This document shows positions 4,657-56,783 of a stretch of 59,440 bases of DNA, piece by piece; the first letter of the stretch is position 1; every line of letters begins with the position of its first letter. A program made the translations under genes and the position numbers. This DNA is from a virus. Where the stretch lies: positions 1 through 59,440 of the IMG/VR virus record IMGVR_UViG_3300044614_001667, one strand, 5' to 3'. A model generated the notes under the pieces. The model had not been told where the DNA came from. It was given only the letters and a program-made list of their open reading frames with translations, and searched no databases.

Positions 4657-6900
4657 TCAGCGACCAACTACTTCAGCAAACGAAACACCAGTCTTAGTAG
4701 CCGTTAAGGTTACAGTGATATAGTTGATAGAACGGGTTGGTTTAATATAAATTTCAGCAACAAATTCGTTACGATCAATTACATCTGGAGTATTGTTTGA
4801 ATCATCACAAACAACCAGGAAGTCGGTTACACCTCTTCTTGCCTGAACTTCACCCATATAGGAATTTAGAGCACTAGCAAAAGATGCTCTAGTTGTTTCA
4901 TCATTCTGTTCGAATAGAACTTGCTTGGCAAGTCCTTCTGCTCTCTTTTGAACATTGAGGAATAAACGACGAACGTTAATTCTGTCAAAAGCACTTGGTG
5001 AAGCAAGAGCAGTTTTATCACCAAATAGAGTTACACCTGAGCCAGGGAAAGAAACAATAGGATTGATTCTTGCCTGATAAAGCTCATCTCTATCAGCTTT
5101 GTTTGGATTGTAAGCTAATTTAACAGCGTTACGTAGTGAACCTCTGTTTACCCCAGCAGGCGAATACCAATCATCTAAAGTTGCTGAAGTAGCTACACAT
5201 AAACCAGCGATATCTCCGTTACATGGAATATAACGATACTTATCATTGAAACGGTCATAGAAATACTTATAACCACTATCAAATATTCCATAAGATGTTG
5301 ATGCTAAACCATTAAAGAAATTAATAGTATTAATTTTTTGCTGTGAAGTAGTTAAAGCACCACTAGAACCTACTTGGTTTCCTTTATGTGGTGATACAAA
5401 AGCAATACAATCTTTTCTTGAAGCAGCAATTGAAAGAACTTTTGCCGCTTTTGCTTTAGTGTCTGATTCTAATGCCATAGATCCACCCATTAGTACAAAA
5501 TCTACGACAGTAGCTTCAGTATCTAAGAAAAGATCATAAGCTAAGCCAATCTCGGCTGAGTTATATTCGTAATCATCTGTGCCACCATAAAGAGTATTTG
5601 GTGATACTAAAGCTAGATTAAATTTATCTCCAGCTTCTAGATCGGTTGACTCTAGACCCCAAGCATAGTAAGAATAACCTCCACCAGCGTTGTAATTAGT
5701 AGAAGGATGAGCGCCAGTAAATACGTAAGATGATTGCTCGTTAATTACAGTTCTGTAATAAGTGTTAGCACTTTCGGTGCTTCTTCCATCGGCAAGTTTT
5801 GAAAGATAAGTAAATCTTTCTATGACATTATTTGCTGAACCAGAGATAGCACCAGTTAAATCAATAACAGCTACGTGTACTTCGTCCCATTCAATTCCTC
5901 TAGAAGAAGCATAGTCAGAAGTTCCTGGGCGAGGACCAACAGCAGATAACTTAATGCCAGTAGTTTGACCCATGCCGTAGGTAATTTCTGTGTTAGTGTA
6001 CCAATCAGAAACGGCAGTTACAGCAATTGCTGTGTTATTTACTGAAGCTACTTGGAAAGTGACATCAGGACCAGTTGTGCCAATTAAAGCAGCAGCAACA
6101 GTAATTGTATTTCCTACAATATATCCAGCGCCACCATTGACTACAGTAACATTAACTGTTCCGCCAGCTCCACCACCAGCATCGGCAATGGTTACAGTGA
6201 CAGTTAATCCGGCGCCAGTTCCCCCAGTAGTAGCAACACCAGTATAAGTTCCAGGAGTTCTGGTAGCAGAAATAGGACTTATCGAATTGATGGTTGAAAC
6301 TACACCAGTATCTGGAGTATCTAAAGTATCTGAAGTTGTAATTAACTCTGAACCGCCAGTTAATAAAACTGTAGCTACGTTTGTTTGAGAATTCCAGTAA
6401 ATTACTTCGGCAGTTTTTCCACCAGTAAATGTTAGGATAGTACCCTGCTGAACATCTGCTGGATCCTGATTCAAGGTTACGTATTGATCGGCACCTCTAT
6501 CAATTACAGCAACTAGAAGTGAATTACCCCAGGTTCCGGCAGTTCTAGCAACAAAAGGTTCCGAAATAGAACCACCAGAAATCCAATCCTGATCGTTCTT
6601 AACTAAGTAACCACCATCGGTAGTAGCATTTTCTACGTTGGTAGCCGAACGAACTACAGCTAATCTACCACCGTAGTTTAAAAATTCGGAAGCAACATAC
6701 CAATCTTCGGCGTTAGCATCTGAAGGTTTGCCAAATACATCGATAAGTTGTTTCTGTGAACTTACATTCACAATTTCATCAATAGGTCCTTTTTGAAATG
6801 TAGAAGCAAATGCGGCAGTAATCTGTTGAGCACCAGTGATTACAGCATTTGATAAATCACGCTCCTTAATTACAATTCCAGGCGAGACTTGACTTGCCAT
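4657..6900 (-). CDS. 18: Tail sheath protein gp18
   Basis: gp18 forms the contractile sheath around the tube. The start MASQVSPGIVIKERDLSNAV and the C-terminal half (PNKADRDELYQARINPIVSF, NVRRLFLNVQKRAEGLAKQV, FVAEIYIKPTRSINYITVTL) are the conserved sheath core. At 747 aa it is longer than T4 gp18 (659 aa). Part of the excess is a glycine- and threonine-rich insert at about residues 208-290 with a GGTGAG...GGAGY beta-repeat also seen in the baseplate and fibre proteins here. An AGGAGAAT Shine-Dalgarno supports the start. Confidence 0.97.
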   Translation of the reverse strand: MASQVSPGIVIKERDLSNAVITGAQQITAAFASTFQKGPIDEIVNVSSQKQLIDVFGKPSDANAEDWYVASEFLNYGGRLAVVRSATNVENATTDGGYLVKNDQDWISGGSISEPFVARTAGTWGNSLLVAVIDRGADQYVTLNQDPADVQQGTILTFTGGKTAEVIYWNSQTNVATVLLTGGSELITTSDTLDTPDTGVVSTINSISPISATRTPGTYTGVATTGGTGAGLTVTVTIADAGGGAGGTVNVTVVNGGAGYIVGNTITVAAALIGTTGPDVTFQVASVNNTAIAVTAVSDWYTNTEITYGMGQTTGIKLSAVGPRPGTSDYASSRGIEWDEVHVAVIDLTGAISGSANNVIERFTYLSKLADGRSTESANTYYRTVINEQSSYVFTGAHPSTNYNAGGGYSYYAWGLESTDLEAGDKFNLALVSPNTLYGGTDDYEYNSAEIGLAYDLFLDTEATVVDFVLMGGSMALESDTKAKAAKVLSIAASRKDCIAFVSPHKGNQVGSSGALTTSQQKINTINFFNGLASTSYGIFDSGYKYFYDRFNDKYRYIPCNGDIAGLCVATSATLDDWYSPAGVNRGSLRNAVKLAYNPNKADRDELYQARINPIVSFPGSGVTLFGDKTALASPSAFDRINVRRLFLNVQKRAEGLAKQVLFEQNDETTRASFASALNSYMGEVQARRGVTDFLVVCDDSNNTPDVIDRNEFVAEIYIKPTRSINYITVTLTATKTGVSFAEVVGR

Positions 6901-11024: not shown

Positions 11025-11044
11025 TTTATTTGTGGTTTATTTTA

Positions 11045-11052
11045 TATTTATT
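11045..11052 (-). promoter_or_regulatory. Late promoter-like motif before the 87-aa gene
   Basis: AATAAATA on the minus strand, overlapping the gp16 stop codon and about 21 bases before the ATG at 11024. Confidence 0.45.
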
Positions 11053-11467
11053 CCTCTCCAATTTTTCCCATCTCTTTGATCATTTTTTGAAGATCGGCAG
11101 TGCTGCCGACAAACATTGTATTGTTAACTGTGGTAGGTCCTTTGCCTTTGACGGGAGCATCAAGATCCTTCATCTTCTTCTGAAGATCAATTAATTTATC
11201 GGTCATGTCTGAGACCTGCTTCATAGCGTTCACAGCGACTTCAAATGCTCGGGGGTGCCCAGACTCCTGAGCGACCTCTAAGGCGCCTTGTACGGCCTCC
11301 TGGCCCTTCTCTATGAGGTCGTAGAGCTGACCCCTGGTATATTCGTAATCTTTTTCTGGATCTTCTTTCTTAACTGGGGCAGCTGGCTTTTCTTGTATAA
11401 TTTCTGTTTCTTCTGATGTAACTTCAATGTCAAATATTTGTTCCATATTCTTTTCAAAATCATTCAT
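11048..11467 (-). CDS. 16: Terminase small subunit gp16
   Basis: gp16 is the oligomeric regulator that recognises DNA and stimulates gp17 at packaging initiation. The 139-aa protein (T4: 164 aa) aligns by eye with T4 gp16: an acidic N-terminus, the central helical segment DYEYTRGQLYDLIEKGQEAV through SGHPRAFEVAVNAMKQVSDM with the shared SPR/HPR...EV pattern, and the C-terminal NNTMFVGSTADLQKM matching T4's NATVFMGSPTELMDE. It starts inside the gp15 stop (four-base overlap). Unlike T4 it is not adjacent to gp17; four genes intervene. A GC-rich patch at about 11221-11340 covers its central helices. Confidence 0.9.
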   Translation of the reverse strand: MNDFEKNMEQIFDIEVTSEETEIIQEKPAAPVKKEDPEKDYEYTRGQLYDLIEKGQEAVQGALEVAQESGHPRAFEVAVNAMKQVSDMTDKLIDLQKKMKDLDAPVKGKGPTTVNNTMFVGSTADLQKMIKEMGKIGEE

Positions 11468-13992: not shown

Positions 13993-14025
13993 AAAAAATC
14001 CCTTCTTGTATTTATCAAGAAGGGA
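13993..14025 (-). terminator. Rho-independent terminator after the 60-aa coiled-coil gene, with a promoter-like loop
   Basis: On the minus strand a perfect 10-bp stem TCCCTTCTTG/CAAGAAGGGA (13999-14008 with 14016-14025) has a seven-base loop and is followed by six T. It lies directly after the 60-aa gene stop. The loop and one flanking base spell GATAAATA, the late promoter-like motif used elsewhere in the window. Confidence 0.85.
14009..14016 (-). promoter_or_regulatory. Late promoter-like motif in the terminator loop before gene 13
   Basis: GATAAATA on the minus strand occupies the terminator loop. A transcript would start near 14002 and run into the neck operon gp13-gp14-gp15-gp16, whose first ATG is at 13980. 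Confidence 0.5.
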
Positions 14026-14032
14026 CTTAAGG

Positions 14033-14215
14033 TTATTCTTCTGAAGCTTCTTCTGCTTCTTCTGGGGGATTGAGAAGAGCTAAGGTTTCGAGACCACCTT
14101 GAAGTTTAAGGCGATACTCTTTTGCTTTTTCGAGATTTGCTTCAAGATCAATAATCTGCTTTTCGGCAGTAGCAAGTTGCTCTTCAAAGTTCTTTTTGAG
14201 TTGTTCAGTGTCCAT
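14033..14215 (-). CDS. Small coiled-coil hypothetical protein
   Basis: A 60-aa protein starting MDTEQLKKNFEEQLATAEKQ. Heptad-spaced Leu and Ile with Lys and Glu through residues 1-45 predict a single coiled coil; the end is acidic (PPEEAEEASEE). No catalytic motif is visible. It is monocistronic in layout, with a late promoter-like AATAAATA upstream at 14244-14251 and a strong terminator downstream. Its place just before the neck genes suggests a minor structural, chaperone or scaffolding part, which is inference. Confidence 0.7.
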   Translation of the reverse strand: MDTEQLKKNFEEQLATAEKQIIDLEANLEKAKEYRLKLQGGLETLALLNPPEEAEEASEE

Positions 14216-14243: not shown

Positions 14244-14251
14244 TATTTATT
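14244..14251 (-). promoter_or_regulatory. Late promoter-like motif before the coiled-coil gene
   Basis: AATAAATA on the minus strand, followed by six A, in the 39-base gap between the oxygenase gene and the coiled-coil gene, about 29 bases before the ATG at 14215. Confidence 0.5.
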
Positions 14252-14254
14252 TAA

Positions 14255-14872
14255 TTAATTGATATGGATATTTAAAGAAGAATCGCAATAACCGAATATG
14301 CCATTAGGAATTAAATTAAATGCTAGTGAATATCTTGGGGTATTTGATTTATGTAATCCAACTCTATGATTTAAATAACTTGGAAAGAATAAAATATTAT
14401 TTTTTGCTGGGTAAATACTCCAAGTGCTACAATTATAATTATTAAAATTTGATGGTTTATTAACCATAAAAGATTGTGGTTTTAAATTATCATCAGAAAA
14501 TTCTATAGGAGCACAATTTTCGAGATCATCAAAATATAATACCCCACTATACAAACAATTTTTGTGATTATGAAAATGAGAAATGGAATTTGATCCTACT
14601 TTAGTTATCCAACTAGTTGTTATTTCAAAAGAAGTTGAATGATAATTTAATATTTCGTTTTTAAAAAAATTAAAAACATTTAAAATATCAGACTTTAATT
14701 CTATGTGATCATTTAGAACATTAAATTTTTTACTACTATAACAATTTTTACTAGTAACGTGCTCTTCAAATTCTGTAGTTAATTTTAAATTTTCAAATAA
14801 TGTTTCATAGTTATTTTCCAATTTAGACTGGAAAACTACAGATGGAAATAGTGGAATAATATTATGCTTCAT
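14255..14872 (-). CDS. Putative 2OG-Fe(II) oxygenase (minus-strand member of the pair)
   Basis: A 205-aa protein of the type usually annotated 2OG-FeII_Oxy_5. Such enzymes use 2-oxoglutarate, oxygen and Fe(II) to hydroxylate a substrate. HFHNHKN supplies the HxH pair at about residues 101 and 103, FFPSYLNHRVG the distal iron-binding His at about 169, and PRYSLAFN the 2-oxoglutarate Arg at about 180. SGVLYFD between them is the usual double-stranded beta-helix strand. It is transcribed from a consensus sigma-70 promoter (14901-14929) rather than a late one. The substrate is unknown; nearby fibre proteins or nucleic acid are possible. Confidence 0.8.
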   Translation of the reverse strand: MKHNIIPLFPSVVFQSKLENNYETLFENLKLTTEFEEHVTSKNCYSSKKFNVLNDHIELKSDILNVFNFFKNEILNYHSTSFEITTSWITKVGSNSISHFHNHKNCLYSGVLYFDDLENCAPIEFSDDNLKPQSFMVNKPSNFNNYNCSTWSIYPAKNNILFFPSYLNHRVGLHKSNTPRYSLAFNLIPNGIFGYCDSSLNIHIN

Positions 14873-14886
14873 TCAAAATAAAGTAG

Positions 14887-14915
14887 TTGTTCCTGCTTTG
14901 ATTATATGCTATAAT
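14887..14915 (+). promoter_or_regulatory. Sigma-70 promoter for the plus-strand oxygenase
   Basis: TTGTTC (14887-14892), a 17-base spacer, TATAAT (14910-14915) on the plus strand, overlapping the minus-strand promoter. Transcription would start near 14922, 18 bases before the ATG at 14940. Confidence 0.75.
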
Positions 14916-14929
14916 TAAATTATTGTCAA
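14901..14929 (-). promoter_or_regulatory. Exact-consensus sigma-70 promoter for the minus-strand oxygenase
   Basis: On the minus strand TTGACA (14924-14929), a 17-base spacer, then TATAAT (14901-14906). Both hexamers and the spacing match the bacterial sigma-70 ideal. Transcription would start near 14894, 22 bases before the ATG at 14872. Confidence 0.85.
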
Positions 14930-14939
14930 TAGAAAACAG

Positions 14940-15539
14940 ATGAAAGATAATCTACCACAAATTCCTAGGATTGAAACGTGGTTCCCAAAATGTATCTACA
15001 TTGTGGATAATGTTTGTGTAAATCTTTTAGATGATTTAAAAACAAAAATAAAAAATAATGATATTCAAACTAAACGAAGTCAAACTTTAAATGTAGATTC
15101 TACTCATTTAGTTAATAATGTATTACATAAAACAGAAGTATTTTGTGATTTGAAAAATACTATAGAATATCATGCTAGATTATTTTTAGAATATATGGGA
15201 TATAATTCCGAATATATTTCAAAATGTGTTGTTGTGAATATGTGGTATAACATCAGCAACAAAAATGATTTCCTATTTCCTCATACACATCCAGGATCAA
15301 TATTGGCTGGAGCATATTATGTTGAATCTGTTGAAGAAAATAATATTATATTTTACGATGATATGACATCATCATATGAGCCACCAACTACCATAACAAA
15401 CCTTTCAATGACCACATGTAACTATCCTTGTATTCCTGGTAGATTAATGTTGTTTAGAAGTAACCTACTTCACGGAACACCAAAACAAATTAATGATGGA
15501 CAAAAAATAGTTATATCCTTCAATATTAATAAACTTTAA
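14940..15539 (+). CDS. Putative 2OG-Fe(II) oxygenase (only plus-strand gene)
   Basis: A 199-aa protein of the same broad fold class as its divergent neighbour but only distantly similar. FPHTHPGSILAGAYYVE gives the HxH ligands at about residues 115 and 117, and LFRSNLLHGTP the distal His at about 178. Where the family normally has an Arg binding 2-oxoglutarate, this protein has QKIVISFN with Lys at about 189. It has its own sigma-70 promoter and ends with a four-base stop-to-stop overlap with the convergent 146-aa gene. Substrate unknown; regulation by the shared promoter region suggests early expression. Confidence 0.78.
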   Translation: MKDNLPQIPRIETWFPKCIYIVDNVCVNLLDDLKTKIKNNDIQTKRSQTLNVDSTHLVNNVLHKTEVFCDLKNTIEYHARLFLEYMGYNSEYISKCVVVNMWYNISNKNDFLFPHTHPGSILAGAYYVESVEENNIIFYDDMTSSYEPPTTITNLSMTTCNYPCIPGRLMLFRSNLLHGTPKQINDGQKIVISFNINKL

Positions 15540-15976
15540 TTATTTTGAATTAAATCTTCTGGATTTGGTTTATTTTCTTCAATGGTTTTTATTTCTTCCA
15601 TAATCATCTGCTCAAACTTATCTTCAATCCATGATTGAGTTTCTTCTGACCAAATATATGGAGTTTCTCCTTCTGGTTTTGGAATGGGTGGTTCCCATCT
15701 TGCCAAGTCCTTATTAAGAACCCATGATGGAAATGGTTTTTCCTGAATAAAAATATCTAATTCTGGATTGTAATAATCACCAATGCCAGCATAATTTCCA
15801 CGAAAATTTCCATTATATGATGTTTGCTTCCAATTTGAATATCCGTGAATATTTGCCAAATATTGAATACCAACATGCTCGGATTCAATTCCATTCTCAT
15901 CCAATAAATTTTCGTTATCTACAACAGAGATATGAATAACTTTATTATTAGAATCTAATTTAGCGAAGTGTGCCAT
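15536..15976 (-). CDS. Hypothetical conserved phage protein next to the adhesin cluster
   Basis: A 146-aa protein starting MAHFAKLDSNNKVIHISVVD, with SYNGNFRGNYAGIGDYYNPE and FIQEKPFPSWVLN in the centre and a C-terminal acidic helix. This aromatic- and Gly-rich pattern recurs in short proteins encoded beside phage tail fibres; their role is not established to my knowledge. An exact TATAAATA late promoter lies only 14 bases upstream, and no Shine-Dalgarno is visible, so the messenger may have a very short leader. It is the last gene of the fibre block and converges on the plus-strand oxygenase. Confidence 0.7.
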   Translation of the reverse strand: MAHFAKLDSNNKVIHISVVDNENLLDENGIESEHVGIQYLANIHGYSNWKQTSYNGNFRGNYAGIGDYYNPELDIFIQEKPFPSWVLNKDLARWEPPIPKPEGETPYIWSEETQSWIEDKFEQMIMEEIKTIEENKPNPEDLIQNN

Positions 15977-15988
15977 AATTTTTTATTT

Positions 15989-17086
15989 TTATTTATAGAG
16001 ATATCTGATCACAACAATACCTGAACCGCCTTCACCACCTTTGTTGTTGGCATTGTAGTGAGATCCGCCACCACCGCCGCCGCCAGTATTAGCGCCGCCA
16101 TTGCCACCAGGAGTTTGCGCCCATGTGTTGATACCACCACCGCCTCCTGGAGATCCAGGATTTAATCCATCACCTCCTACAGTAAAACCAACGGCTCCTC
16201 CGCCGCCACCACCGTTACCGCCACTACCGCCATTGTATGCGGAATAAGCAGCGCCTCCGCCGCCTCCTCCCCAGTAAAGACTGGTTCCTAAAATATCACA
16301 TTCTTTTCCTATTCCTCCATTTGGTGGATATGTTGAATCATATCCTTTACCGCCAGCTCCGCCGCCACCACCGGAATAATATTGTCCTCCACCTTGACCA
16401 CCATTGTATCCCTGTCCAACAGTTCCTGCTCCACCTTGTCTAGTACCTCCATCGCTATACCCAGAAGCACCACCACCAGATCCACCAGCACTACCAGCAG
16501 CACCTGGAGAATATTGAAAATAAGAACTTCCTCCAGCTCCACCACCAATAGCAGTAAGACCAAAAACTGAAGAATTTGTTCCATTAGTTGCTGGTACTGT
16601 AAATTGATGTCCTCCTGGTTGAGGACCAACACCATCAGTTCTAATTCCTCCACTACCAGCAGGGGCACCATATCCGCCTCGTCCAACAACGACAGGATAT
16701 GTTCCAGCAGTACCAGCGACACGACCAAATAATACACCACCGCCACCGCCACCGCCACCCATATCCATTCCACCGCCCCCACCACCAGCAACAATCAAAT
16801 ACTCAAAGATACCAATACCCGAAGTTACACTGAATGTAAATGATCCAACTGTTTTGAAACTGTGTATTTTATAATTTCCATAATATGAAATCTCTCCTCC
16901 AGTAGCAGTGAAAGCGGTACTTCCAGAAACTTCCCATATGGTTCCATTCCACTTTTCAAAATTGGATATTGTTGTATTAAAAATAATTGAATTTACTTCT
17001 GGAGAAACTGGTCTAGTTCCAGTAGTTACGGTTGGTAGTATTAGTCCTTCCGAGAGAACCAGTTTTCCTACATTTAATTTAGACAT
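15989..17086 (-). CDS. Glycine-rich adhesin-like tail fibre protein, copy 1
   Basis: A 365-aa protein with a short N-terminal attachment-like segment (LPTVTTGTRPVSPEVNSIIF, then NTTISNFEKWNGTIW) to about residue 60, a beta linker to about 90, and then about 260 residues dominated by glycine runs with interspersed Asn, Ser and aromatic residues, ending GSGIVVIRYLYK. Such glycine-rich domains form polyglycine-II sandwiches in phage adhesins like S16 gp38. The whole layout recurs in the next two genes, so these are paralogues. It probably contributes to receptor recognition at the fibre tip (inference). Confidence 0.8.
   Translation of the reverse strand: MSKLNVGKLVLSEGLILPTVTTGTRPVSPEVNSIIFNTTISNFEKWNGTIWEVSGSTAFTATGGEISYYGNYKIHSFKTVGSFTFSVTSGIGIFEYLIVAGGGGGGMDMGGGGGGGGVLFGRVAGTAGTYPVVVGRGGYGAPAGSGGIRTDGVGPQPGGHQFTVPATNGTNSSVFGLTAIGGGAGGSSYFQYSPGAAGSAGGSGGGASGYSDGGTRQGGAGTVGQGYNGGQGGGQYYSGGGGGAGGKGYDSTYPPNGGIGKECDILGTSLYWGGGGGGAAYSAYNGGSGGNGGGGGGAVGFTVGGDGLNPGSPGGGGGINTWAQTPGGNGGANTGGGGGGGSHYNANNKGGEGGSGIVVIRYLYK
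15990..15997 (-). promoter_or_regulatory. Exact T4-type late promoter before the 146-aa gene
   Basis: TATAAATA on the minus strand, a perfect match to the T4 late consensus, overlapping the end of the glycine-rich gene and ending 14 bases before the ATG at 15976. Confidence 0.65.
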
Positions 17087-39600: not shown

Positions 39601-41697
39601 AACAAATAAAGTATTGCCGAAAGTGTAATTACCTGTAGTATCTGATTCGATTACACCATAAGCTCTACTAGTTCTTCCAATGATATATTTGCCCGTAGTA
39701 AAACCAGCATCAACTAAACTATCCAATTTAATTCTAGTAAAAAATACTGGATTGAAATAAGAGAAATTGAATGTAGCATCATAAGGTCTAGTATTATTAC
39801 CAGTTCTTCCTTTTGAAATTACAATATCAGTATCTTCATTAAATCCAGAAGCCCTTTTAACTAAAGAAAAATCTTTGGGTTTAGCAATACCAATGATTGG
39901 AGTTATGGTTTCATTATAATCTACAACTATGCCATAGATAGATTCACTAGAATTTGATAGAGCTAGAGATTCAGACAAGTATAAAAATCTTTTTTTGGAA
40001 GGACTGCCTTCATCATATTCTAAAAGATATGAATCTAGTAATGATTTTTTACCAACTACAGTGAACTCGATGTAAAATTGTCCACTAGATTCTGAAACTT
40101 CTGGTCTTCTAACTACAGAATGACCGATTACATCAGCATAATCTACAGTTGACGCTAATCCACCACTTCTAGTTTTAATAAACCACAACTTAGATGGAAA
40201 ATCTGTTTCTAGGGAAGGAAGCTCTCCAGTTACTTGAACATATATTGTTCTAATGCCATCACTCAAAGTAAATGGAACAGATCTTCTATTTTTTGTTTGT
40301 TTAAAATAAATTGAAGATTCTTCGTTGTTTAATCCAATTGTGCCATCATTAAAAACACTATTCAAATAAATGTTTGGTGTTGATGTAATTTCATCTCCAA
40401 TTGTGTTTAGTGGAACTGAACCATATAGATTAGTAATCTTAAATTGTGATAATCCTTTAGTTTTGATAGTTACGTTATCTTTTACTAAAGTATCTCTAGC
40501 TTTATTAACTGTAATAGATTTGGTTTCTTTATTTACTATCTCAAATCCTTTTACATATGCCTTTCCTGGCCCAACACCCAAAACTAATTTTGAAGATGCC
40601 TCGGAAAGAGATAATCCATTTACTTTATTAGTAGCTGAATCTAATTTGTAAATGCCATTATTATTGTTTTGATAATATTCTCTTACATCGAATGAAAAAT
40701 TGTCTACGACATAATCACCTGATTCATCGTATGTTCTTCTGGCGAGAGTTTCTTCTAATAAAGTATAATCGGCTGGCTTTATTTGTCTCTCGATTACGCC
40801 AGAATTAATCTGTAATAATTGTATAAAATTTTTATCTGTCTGTGCCAAATAATCAAATTTCTTCAACTCTAAAGAAATCTTTAATCGATGGGCTCCAGGA
40901 GAAGAAAAATTAGAATATCCTCTAGAGTTATCATATAAAGAAGCATCTTCTTCTGGAGTAACAATCGATTCCTGAATAACAAAACCAACTTTTGCTGATG
41001 GCTTATCGTAGTACTTATCAATAATTAAAATCTGTGTTTGATTTTGTACAAAATAACCATTAATAAAATAAACACCTTCATTTACTTCTGCAGCAGAAGC
41101 ATAACCCATTGCTGGGCTTTGTAGACTAGTAGTTTCTTCTGTGATAGGATTAGTTACAAAAATACTAGTTGGAAGAACGCTGCCATCGGTTCCTACAACT
41201 AGTAAAGGTGTATTTACTCCACCAACAACTTCTAATGTTTCGCCTTGTCTAAAGGTATTTTCGTTGTTGGCGTCTCCGCTTGTCAAATAATTTACAAAAA
41301 TTGTATCTGATTCTATTTCAGAACCATATTCTGAAGATATTACCGAAGCAATAACTCCAGAATTTATGCCTCTTAATTGAGACCCAACTAGCTTCTTGAT
41401 ATCATATTTTTGATATACAATATTGCCGTCAACATTTACGGCAACTTCAGAAACAGAAGACAATTTAACATAGTTTAACTTGTTATTTAACCCGACTTCT
41501 CCAGGTATAACAAGTTCTCCTTGCTTAAATTGGAATTTTCCGTAACTCTCGATTTGATTTTGGAGAATTGATTGGAGGGAGGTTAACTCCCTCGTTTGAA
41601 CGGAATATCCAGGTCTAAAAAGAACTTTATAGAAGTTCTTTGAAGAATCAAAATCATCATAATATGGAGCTACATTAAGATTTGTCTTCTGTGGCAT
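33625..41697 (-). CDS. Giant baseplate/tail structural protein with DUF4815-like N-terminus (2690 aa)
   Basis: Starts MPQKTNLNVAPYYDDFDSSK, then FRPGYSVQTRELTSLQSILQ. This, with LVLGVGPGKAYVKGFEIVNK at about residue 375, is typical of the DUF4815 phage structural family. The middle contains many short beta modules including SGRGYTEAPSVVIRGVGTGS at about 2000. A helical segment KLEKRIERLEYYTTLSILEQ lies at about 1360. The C-terminus FAIKIVMKTDDPAYVPKIQD is the conserved end of this cyanophage protein. It follows gp8, where T4 has gp9-gp12, so it may replace baseplate or fibre-connector functions. The exact T4 counterpart is unclear. Confidence 0.78.
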   Translation of the reverse strand: MPQKTNLNVAPYYDDFDSSKNFYKVLFRPGYSVQTRELTSLQSILQNQIESYGKFQFKQGELVIPGEVGLNNKLNYVKLSSVSEVAVNVDGNIVYQKYDIKKLVGSQLRGINSGVIASVISSEYGSEIESDTIFVNYLTSGDANNENTFRQGETLEVVGGVNTPLLVVGTDGSVLPTSIFVTNPITEETTSLQSPAMGYASAAEVNEGVYFINGYFVQNQTQILIIDKYYDKPSAKVGFVIQESIVTPEEDASLYDNSRGYSNFSSPGAHRLKISLELKKFDYLAQTDKNFIQLLQINSGVIERQIKPADYTLLEETLARRTYDESGDYVVDNFSFDVREYYQNNNNGIYKLDSATNKVNGLSLSEASSKLVLGVGPGKAYVKGFEIVNKETKSITVNKARDTLVKDNVTIKTKGLSQFKITNLYGSVPLNTIGDEITSTPNIYLNSVFNDGTIGLNNEESSIYFKQTKNRRSVPFTLSDGIRTIYVQVTGELPSLETDFPSKLWFIKTRSGGLASTVDYADVIGHSVVRRPEVSESSGQFYIEFTVVGKKSLLDSYLLEYDEGSPSKKRFLYLSESLALSNSSESIYGIVVDYNETITPIIGIAKPKDFSLVKRASGFNEDTDIVISKGRTGNNTRPYDATFNFSYFNPVFFTRIKLDSLVDAGFTTGKYIIGRTSRAYGVIESDTTGNYTFGNTLFVSTLSGTFLSGETILDEDGNSVKIAKDNTISHFIVTNGGNSYPSTSKIVINGQEIDQSKVSVSQYGGTIYSAKIISRDGISSTYSSPPIVTVTPAPSLSTNAATIVPVLNKNSVLTYTPQNIKSFSSTYNNHKFTADVDVTNTQYSTYTQISDFSFFGYKGRKYIECNGFGANLSKDLVQGDLIQFTDINNNVIRNIVQSVTDPEGITKSRIYFDYALPEDITNATIIRLRPNIENTNSSTLVFPTGSKQVGSLIKDTSDTKFKYYVRKDFITDLSSSGGNITFTAQLPVGTQRFVNFNENSYVVTVLDKGSSTAVNNGDIVYISPENVTIIQSEITSNQISAGAFVINLPTNYFGSIPLGGTFPKLKLTATIEIDKARPRLKTSIKNKRIVIISSGDRVIPLRGQDYDGETIETFSYSDAYRLRYIYEGTTTNPPKVDANGNLVSGTDITYKFTFDDGQRDTFYDVSRIVLKPGFDPPNGQLVVAFDYFEHSQGDFSTVDSYLHEAGVSVDEIPLFNSSVNGVISLKDAVDFRPKVDSETTITGFQDISILSNPAGRDYINFVGAGGVTSLSPASDSNLEYTVSFTETQYLDRIDGVFLTKKGDFVVKEGNSSQNPSRPDPVDDAIALCYLHIPAYTNNSKDVRIISVNNKRYTMKDIGKLEKRIERLEYYTTLSILEQQALNMQIKDEIGFDRFKSGFIVDNFEAHKIGNLNSLDYKCAIDSQQSVLRPQTKEDCFNLVEVNTRNDQRSVSGYVNNNGVITLPYKSLKFLGNDNATKTLNPNPFVVIQYVGDGSLTPSIDQWYDTTVAPLVNDTNTKLNSIFLAKDSVKESFASIHNSFIVNWTGTNKAFYNIESLANINSEDTQSSVTSASVASSSNVSPQNNELAKGVNSKTVNDLNVSTELQFFARSIPVKFVVGRLKPNTRVYIFMEGRDVGKWTIPDTRFTGVPGNSLSTFNSPLVTDLNGNLSGIILVPAGKSPVENSRWTGNPDTVSYDENSEEVRFTSGYKTIRFTSSSLNEIKENVETYAEVKFYSSGVIPQNPPSIVSTDTATFKANEGVQLVNSNTDIEIKPNPLAQTFKIENYAGGVFVTGVDLFFAKKSSSIPVKAYLTNVDVGKPGKYIVPGTECTLRPETLLKIYVTGDTETITIDKSEFVTGKNSNASGPILKVFDKNNIQIGDETSVRFDLNKEQVYTLVLENHNGISFVQNEQLIISSVTQYNARNNTNVNIFIAKDSGKVVDLKVTNVGENYTSATIIVESPQLPGGSTATGTVDVSDGKIYNTTISLSGRGYTEAPSVVIRGVGTGSGGAIIESVIEIDSPAVSMGVAIDRDGITPSTVPTRFNFNHPVYLQNNTEYALTIETDSIEYELWASKLGETEISTSNIVSSQPLLGSVYKSQNTDNWTEDLFEDIKFSLYKAEFDISKNAELLATNENLGYELLDVSPFETSVRSATNATSSLFKNNNSIIKVSHRDHGFEDKGNSYVFFKNSEDVGGISSVSLNSKLFRITNSGIDTYNIIGPNRAGASILGGGSKVLASYNRKFEKLYAQVAFLKLDGTNVDSFVKTTNAVPVDSNTTNYLSYSQSDFEKTFINEEQFFTNQKVISSRINETLNQLDRSLTYKFVLSSTNSNLSPVIDLRTSSVKTQSSRVENSTGYENRYGKRDQILRFSPLYNLTLTVVGTAGQISQNQTLVGATSKAEGTIVQITNSVALIRLKTKTPFLQNEAATLISSDGTVIDTISINISSISELSFNFSENSNVLAYYPQNVTIEYANKINGRVIVWDSKDKEMIIENSYAPINNDYTSKITKDSVFVRQETQASQSPDIFRVGDILKSSDGRYVEVASMEFTTGVDYVKETDAKNSSAAAKYVTKEVSINSAGSSIDVRLTINLKNTENVKVLYKIKETSSQSNFDDINWNYFNIDGNPDNDDLATASNSISGQFEKQSYYQEFKYSAPNLPEFTSFAIKIVMKTDDPAYVPKIQDLRAVASY

Positions 41698-56293: not shown

Positions 56294-56485
56294 TTACTCT
56301 TCAAATCTTTCTACAAAATCATCAAAACCGCCAGCCCCACCACATTGACGGGATAAACGGTTTTCTGGAACTTTATATTTACTGAGTTTATGTTTTCTGA
56401 TGTATTTTTCTGAAGCAAGGTCTGAAATCAGAGTCATACCTGACCGAATAAAATCTTCGCCTTTATCTACTGGACTCATAGCCAT
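56294..56485 (-). CDS. Small basic hypothetical protein (63 aa)
   Basis: Starts MAMSPVDKGEDFIRSGMTLI and ends QCGGAGGFDDFVERFEE, with a Lys-rich middle (EKYIRKHKLSKYKVPE). An open frame extends 73 codons further upstream, but that extension is the 47-aa gene and its terminator read in another frame. GGAG at 56493-56496 before the ATG at 56485 supports the short start. No family recognised. It lies after a terminator and before the gp25 promoter; an obvious promoter of its own was not seen. Confidence 0.65.
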   Translation of the reverse strand: MAMSPVDKGEDFIRSGMTLISDLASEKYIRKHKLSKYKVPENRLSRQCGGAGGFDDFVERFEE

Positions 56486-56492
56486 CTGTTTT

Positions 56493-56496
56493 CTCC
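56493..56496 (-). promoter_or_regulatory. Ribosome binding site deciding the start at 56485
   Basis: GGAG on the minus strand seven bases before the ATG. It supports the short 63-aa product over the 136-aa frame that would read through the terminator. Confidence 0.55.
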
Positions 56497-56556
56497 ATTG
56501 AGGTTTAAACAGAACTTTTAAAGGGGTTGCTATCCCTTCCATACTATTTACAATCA

Positions 56557-56580
56557 ATAAAAAAGCGGCTTTCGCCGCTG
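56557..56580 (-). terminator. Rho-independent terminator after the 47-aa gene
   Basis: On the minus strand AGCGGC/GCCGCT (56574-56579 with 56564-56569) closes a four-base GAAA loop and is followed by TTTTTATTG, the last T of the stem giving a run of six. It lies six bases after the 47-aa gene stop. Confidence 0.9.
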
Positions 56581-56585
56581 AATTA

Positions 56586-56729
56586 TTAGTTGCCTTGACC
56601 ACGATACTTTTTACGAGCATTATTTCTGCTTGTGGCAGCATACTTCGTGTTCTTCCCAGCACCCTGACGAGTGGACTTGGGTTTGGACTCGATTTTGACG
56701 CCACCAGTGAAAGACGGACGCTTAGCCAT
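56586..56729 (-). CDS. Small highly basic protein (47 aa) with its own promoter and terminator
   Basis: The product MAKRPSFTGGVKIESKPKST continues to ARKKYRGQGN. About 13 of 47 residues are Lys or Arg and none forms a hydrophobic core, so it is likely disordered and may bind nucleic acid. I recall similar short proteins in cyanophages but no known function. It is a separate transcription unit: a sigma-70 promoter (TTGACA, 17 bases, TATACT) at 56755-56783 and a terminator at 56557-56580. No Shine-Dalgarno is seen. An early host-directed role or abundant DNA-binding role is inference. Confidence 0.82.
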   Translation of the reverse strand: MAKRPSFTGGVKIESKPKSTRQGAGKNTKYAATSRNNARKKYRGQGN

Positions 56730-56754: not shown

Positions 56755-56783
56755 AGTATACCCTATTTACTTCCTTGTGTCAA
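56755..56783 (-). promoter_or_regulatory. Near-consensus sigma-70 promoter for the 47-aa gene
   Basis: On the minus strand TTGACA (56778-56783), a 17-base spacer, TATACT (56755-56760). The -35 box is inside the end of the PAAR gene. Transcription would start near 56748, 19 bases before the ATG at 56729. Confidence 0.8.

Follow-up and report, generated by a model that had tools for sequence, protein, structure and literature searches.

The window analysed here, a virus record of 59,440 bases, belongs to a T4-like cyanophage (Kyanoviridae), and its gp13-gp16 neck/packaging genes match those of S-PM2 and other Kyanoviridae. A second record, IMGVR_UViG_3300042522_000700 (hereafter G001, 88 kb), is identical to the window wherever compared around the locus and reaches further, into the early/replication region. 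Almost all the genes of the structural block are minus-strand genes; oxyP, the exception, diverges from its neighbor oxyM and converges with a PHROG 7759 gene (Table 1).

Table 1. Features of the oxyM/oxyP locus, in window coordinates
Feature	Position	Strand	Description
p580 gene (PHROG 580)	14033..14215	-	Conserved left flank of the variable site
Intrinsic terminator	13996..14028	-	13-bp stem and T run; ends the oxyM-p580 transcription path
Late motif AATAAATA	14244..14251	-	Precedes the p580 gene; L017/L018/L041 conserve it
oxyM	14255..14872	-	205 aa, 2OG-Fe(II) oxygenase (PF13759, PHROG 81), late-strand orientation
Spacer between the two ATGs	14873-14939		67 bases; separates oxyM (-) and oxyP (+)
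PoxyP, sigma-70 promoter	14887..14915	+	-35 TTGTTC 14887-14892, 17-nt spacer, -10 TATAAT 14910-14915
10-bp inverted repeat, one mismatch	14897..14919	.	TTTGATTATA-TGC-TATAATTAAA, made by the two opposed -10 elements
PoxyM, sigma-70 consensus promoter	14901..14929	-	-35 TTGACA 14929-14924, 17-nt spacer, -10 TATAAT 14906-14901
oxyP	14940..15539	+	199 aa; a 2OG-Fe(II) oxygenase gene running against the structural genes around it
PHROG 7759 gene ("tfc")	15536..15976	-	Adjoins tail-fibre genes; convergent with oxyP, with a 4-bp overlap of the two stops
Late-type promoter motif CTATAAATA	15990..15998	-	14 bp upstream of the 15976 start

An initial annotation had named the two ORFs flanking the spacer as 2OG-Fe(II) oxygenases, which was borne out by their matches to Pfam PF13759 (E = 1.3e-15 and 2.8e-13) and to PHROG 81. 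The two proteins are only ~21% identical. The family motif consists of an HxD/E...H iron triad plus an R/K for 2-oxoglutarate; the invariant residues of this group are HxH...H...K/R (HxH...H...R in oxyM and HxH...H...K in oxyP), with His throughout at the position of the canonical acid. The structure model of oxyP (pLDDT 86.5) has a double-stranded beta-helix fold that matches those of PHD2, prolyl hydroxylase and ABH2, while the oxyM model is weaker (pLDDT 67). Profile and fold thus place both proteins in the family, oxyM with the weaker model. They share family, size, multiple copies per phage and plastic location with the described cyanomyovirus 2OG-Fe(II) oxygenases (PMC3037559; PHROG 81), from which they differ in being inverted and divergently promoted at the border between p580 and the tail-fibre genes.

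Opposed promoters in the 67-base spacer

The hexamers, the 17-nt spacings and the three bases between the two -10 boxes were found at the coordinates given in the initial annotation. PoxyM matches the consensus at 12/12 positions and, in a motif scan of the window, is the sole exact TTGACA-17-TATAAT; its predicted start is an A at 14894, which gives a leader of 22 nt. The -35 of PoxyP is weak (3/6 consensus positions), but TGC at 14907-14909 completes a perfect extended -10 (TGCTATAAT, 14907-14915) that the initial annotation had missed. The predicted PoxyP start is an A at 14922 (leader 18 nt), 28 bp from that of PoxyM. With this arrangement the polymerase footprints at PoxyM and PoxyP are predicted to overlap, and simultaneous occupancy is probably ruled out. 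The inverted repeat over the two -10 elements is largely a by-product of the facing TATAAT boxes; a repressor operator at this position was considered and rejected, as two such boxes yield the repeat automatically. No Rfam element was found in the window.

Chance poorly explains the paired promoters. Under an order-1 Markov model, a window of this size should contain 0.03 exact copies of TTGACA-17-TATAAT; none arose in 60 order-3 simulations, and the facing pair ATTATA-3-TATAAT is expected 0.02-0.03 times per window. None of 3000 simulated spacers equalled the scores of both strands, while the plus score alone was reached by a fraction of 0.012 (1.2%) and the minus score alone by 0.002. In a scan of 12-20 kb, weaker promoter-like sites were no more frequent than in shuffled sequence (23 vs 27), so that the exact site of PoxyM alone stands out there. 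The spacer has a single second copy, in G001, and the two are 100% identical, which leaves no within-lineage variation to compare.

It could be argued that only the minus promoter matters, with oxyM expressed early, the plus TATAAT arising as an AT-rich by-product and oxyP being weak or leaky. The half-consensus -35 of PoxyP, the frequency with which simulated spacers reach the plus score and the 90 lone TATAAT boxes in the window agree with such an explanation, as does the oxyP side of the corresponding pair in ACG-2014g, where no recognisable promoter was found. Against it, a perfect extended -10 can act without a -35, the oxyP side carries TGATATAAT in S-RIM50 and a near-perfect promoter in L216-L219, and an intact inverted gene requires some promoter. 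We therefore regard a role for the minus promoter alone as unlikely.

Early and late promoter classes

On the minus strand of the window, 15 copies of the late motif NATAAATA were counted, against one on the plus strand; the motif lies within 80 nt upstream of 12 of the 30 minus-strand genes, compared to 1.5% at random positions. It is absent from both strands of the spacer (14873-14939), which therefore shows no gp55-type promoter; that the late genes use signals other than those between oxyM and oxyP, as initially annotated, thus holds. The sigma-70 consensus is matched with at most one mismatch at 11 minus-strand sites of G001 versus 1 plus-strand site, and the genes that follow them (named from their translations) include talC (5 bp downstream), petF (63 bp), hli (26 bp), primase (29 bp), mazG (120 bp) and gp55 (31 bp), among others. 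Similar strand biases are found in S-PM2 (14:3), S-RIM50 (18:1) and Sf-CH11 (16:1); records of isolated phages typically have 11-18 sites on one strand versus 1-4 on the other, and reversed-pattern controls give 0-4. Between 117 and 166.5 kb of S-RIM50, 9 of 11 forward sites lie <=120 bp from a gene start, and the genes near them include gp43, mazG, primase, hli and petF. Given that TTGACA-17-TATAAT-like sites are over-represented, strand-biased and located upstream of such genes, the near-consensus sigma-70 sites constitute an early/AMG promoter class in this phage, in agreement with the initial assignment of the spacer's promoters to host sigma-70-type signals.

This is consistent with previous findings that cyanomyoviruses lack alt/mod, have sigma-70-like motifs at early genes and use NATAAATA as the late motif (PMC2984593). 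The hexamers and spacing found here are the same as those of the early promoters of the T4-like cyanophages S-PM2 and Syn9 (PMC2984593), and on the oxyM side the promoter shares its strand with the majority of this phage's early/AMG promoters. Unlike the S-PM2 and Syn9 promoters, those described here lie inside the late structural block and are doubled on the opposite strand. The sigma-70 sites in the spacer, together with the absence of NATAAATA, point to oxyM and oxyP as an early-type unit within the late block, and control of the pair by the host RNA polymerase, with presumably early timing, is well supported by these sequence features.

Homologues of both genes are found in late operons (S-RSM4, L036-L039 and L225-L249), from which it might be supposed that oxyM and oxyP are both late, the sigma-70-like motifs being inactive relics and transcription coming from read-through or from unrecognised late promoters. 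The strand of oxyP is, however, the wrong one for late read-through, the spacer is devoid of NATAAATA in both directions, and an exact 12/12 promoter is unlikely to persist as a relic. Purely late expression of the pair is accordingly highly improbable.

Further sites of these classes were observed elsewhere. A second near-consensus site of the window, TTGACA-17-TATACT at 56755-56783 (minus strand), precedes the gene at 56294-56704, close to the window's right end, by ~50 bp. Back-to-back near-consensus sigma-70 promoters are found upstream of gp55 (a gene seen in G001) at 41632-41695 of G001, 84446-84508 of S-PM2, 65263-65323 of S-H9-2, 63801-63861 of S-RSM4 and 126956-127019 of Sf-CH11. The counter-oriented promoter of these pairs has a conserved spacer, TTGACANNNNCTCAGAAACTCAGTACAAT, which occurs about once per genome with zero control matches; on its strand, G001 has no gene for 5.5 kb downstream, and this promoter possibly drives a conserved non-coding or antisense RNA. 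A wcaG RNA (RF01761, 95.7 bits) lies beside tRNA genes at 11030-11130 (minus strand) of L290, which corresponds to 11030-11130 of G001; in G001 an exact TTGACA-17-TATAAT at 11277..11249, in the early region, closely precedes it.

The strong intrinsic terminator at 13996..14028 (z -4.35) holds the late motif of gp13, GATAAATA, in its loop. Read on the minus strand from 14028 to 13996, it has the form CCCTTCTTG-ATAAATA-CAAGAAGGG-TTTTTT with the NATAAATA motif in the loop, and a terminator of the same kind is found in the same place in L016-L039, S-PM2, S-H9-2 and S-RSM4. Its stem shows apparent compensation between most relatives, e.g., CCCTATCTG/CAGGTAGGG and CCCTGCTTC/GAAGTAGGG, so that it looks like a conserved combination of terminator and late promoter before gp13.

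Inverted oxygenase units in related cyanophages

Scans of relatives using either oxygenase singly matched the identical contig only, and further oxygenase homologues were retrieved by alignment query. In the nearest relatives (L017, L018 and L041; gp13 93% identical), neither oxygenase is present at the site, which is occupied instead by a different short gene (~66 aa), and homology to the window resumes at about position 14256. The comparison of related phages proposed in the initial annotation thus finds both genes missing in near relatives, which makes the pair a mobile, cassette-like insertion. The accompanying description of the pair as a moron does not apply in the strict sense: the genes have promoters and are absent at the same site in these three relatives, but neither has its own terminator. 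At the same junction, L036-L039 have an oxyM homologue (35% identical) on the late strand, directly upstream of the p580 gene, and several oxygenases in a row occupy the late strand in S-RSM4.

The closest oxyP homologues, which are 49-54% identical, are those of L216-L219, and they are inverted at the same site. There, gp13, p580 and a small gene (113-118 aa) on the minus strand are followed by a divergent spacer of 50-61 bp, and the plus strand carries oxyP and four more oxygenases that converge with a Gly-rich tail gene. Facing oxyP, the L216-L219 spacer contains TTGACA-17-TATACT with an extended -10. Divergent oxygenase pairs in which an oxyP homologue leads occur in S-RIM50 and ACG-2014g; there an 11/12 promoter faces the other oxygenase, and the -35 of this promoter abuts or overlaps the oxyP start. 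The predicted starts in S-RIM50, near 4972 and 4977 of its record L010, are 5 bp apart, while in ACG-2014g the strong promoter is directed only toward the other gene.

As in the window, oxyP heads a counter-oriented unit beside tail-fibre genes in all these islands, with a divergent gene 50-67 bp away, at least one near-consensus sigma-70 promoter, and overlapping or abutting convergent stops at the other end. They differ from the window in comprising several genes where it has oxyP alone, and in carrying the 113-118-aa gene (L216-L219) or another oxygenase (S-RIM50 and ACG-2014g) in place of oxyM. Judged from these gene orders, inverted oxygenase islands border the tail-fibre genes in several cyanophage lineages, and the arrangement in the window is one of their variants. 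In the oxyP tree, the window and L216-L219 form a clade with support of 100/99 and the deeper branches are weak; the tree requires a minimum of two transitions between the inverted and the co-directional placements. Given that oxyP is co-directional in a late operon, and presumably late, in S-RSM4 and most IMG/VR homologues, early expression would not be essential for the family. In the literature, no description of an inverted, divergently promoted oxygenase arrangement at the p580/tail-fibre border was found, and these oxygenases go unmentioned in the paper on P-HM2 expression.

Polymerase competition and timing of expression

Opposed sigma-70 promoters over a pseudo-symmetric -10 have been described in bacteria, often between divergent, functionally linked genes and with mutually exclusive polymerase binding (PMC12825309; PMC10268837), which is predicted here as well. 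The starts of those promoters mostly lie 10, 18 or 23 bp from each other and flank a -10 that both directions share, whereas in the spacer each promoter has a complete -10 of its own and 28 bp separate the predicted starts; on this spacing, a bidirectional promoter of that type was rejected. The tested E. coli examples have basal activity too low for competition, and an improved -35 on one side greatly cuts transcription in the other direction (PMC12825309); the promoters described here, in contrast, belong to a lytic phage, and one side is an exact consensus.

The initial annotation had read the overlap as a built-in either/or choice between the two oxygenases. On that view, exclusive occupancy by RNA polymerase would be the selected function, and the choice would be made per template or per cell. 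The full overlap of the opposed promoters, with their closely set -10 boxes, and the steric exclusion established at comparable E. coli promoters (PMC12825309) are compatible with such a switch. Neither the geometry nor the relative strength is conserved among related divergent pairs, however: the stronger promoter faces oxyM in the window but oxyP in L216-L219, and in L216 and L218 the strong promoter is mainly toward oxyP. Nor is the geometry specially enriched in divergent spacers; among the matches listed for viral contigs, this exact overlap was found at 13 divergent versus 70 co-directional sites (background 2.2% and 5.6%), an enrichment over background of about ten-fold for co-directional and about five-fold for divergent spacers among those matches. 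In addition, the locus lacks a feedback element to store a choice, and a consensus -35 on one side predicts simple repression of the other (PMC12825309). A selected choice is, on this evidence, very unlikely, and that part of the initial reading was not upheld.

We consider it probable instead that the spacer is a compact divergent early promoter region, asymmetric in favor of oxyM over oxyP, on which late read-through is superimposed in the sense direction for oxyM and antisense for oxyP. Unmodified host sigma-70 RNA polymerase would transcribe both genes soon after infection, inside the late structural block, and, the footprints overlapping, one template would be used in one direction at a time. 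From the sequence and the E. coli data, the most likely outcome would be a fixed bias, with oxyM strong, because PoxyM is an exact consensus, and oxyP weaker. When infection reaches its late stage, the CTATAAATA motif at 15998 would start gp55-dependent transcription in the leftward direction. No minus-strand terminator was found between 15998 and 14028, and none was found after oxyP or, before the shared one at 14028, after oxyM; a late transcript would therefore cover oxyP in antisense and oxyM in sense. The read-through, assumed to extend over ~1.1 kb, would make OxyM early and late and oxyP mainly early. The leader of only ~7 nt at the 15998 motif counts against this explanation. Antisense RNA is documented at another locus, CfrI, in S-PM2 (PMC2984593).

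A broader form of this divergent early region would be a positional early-to-late timer, in which several lineages keep an early-promoted, counter-oriented oxygenase unit that late tail-fibre transcription silences by antisense or collision, while its partner stays on. Such a general timer seems to us unlikely; if true, it would serve enzymes for which tail fibres or host targets are possible substrates.

The locus provides a natural case, in a phage, on which competition between polymerases at opposed strong promoters can be studied, but of more interest than the overlap is the host-promoted, inverted oxygenase unit that recurs at the border of the tail-fibre genes. Cyanophages carry many 2OG oxygenases, and this family sits in the late tail-fibre operon in some lineages and inverted behind a near-consensus host promoter in others. 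The co-directional and inverted placements across lineages thus make the timing of the oxygenases testable by comparison, and raise the question of an early action of the enzymes on the host, a late one on the tail fibres, or both.
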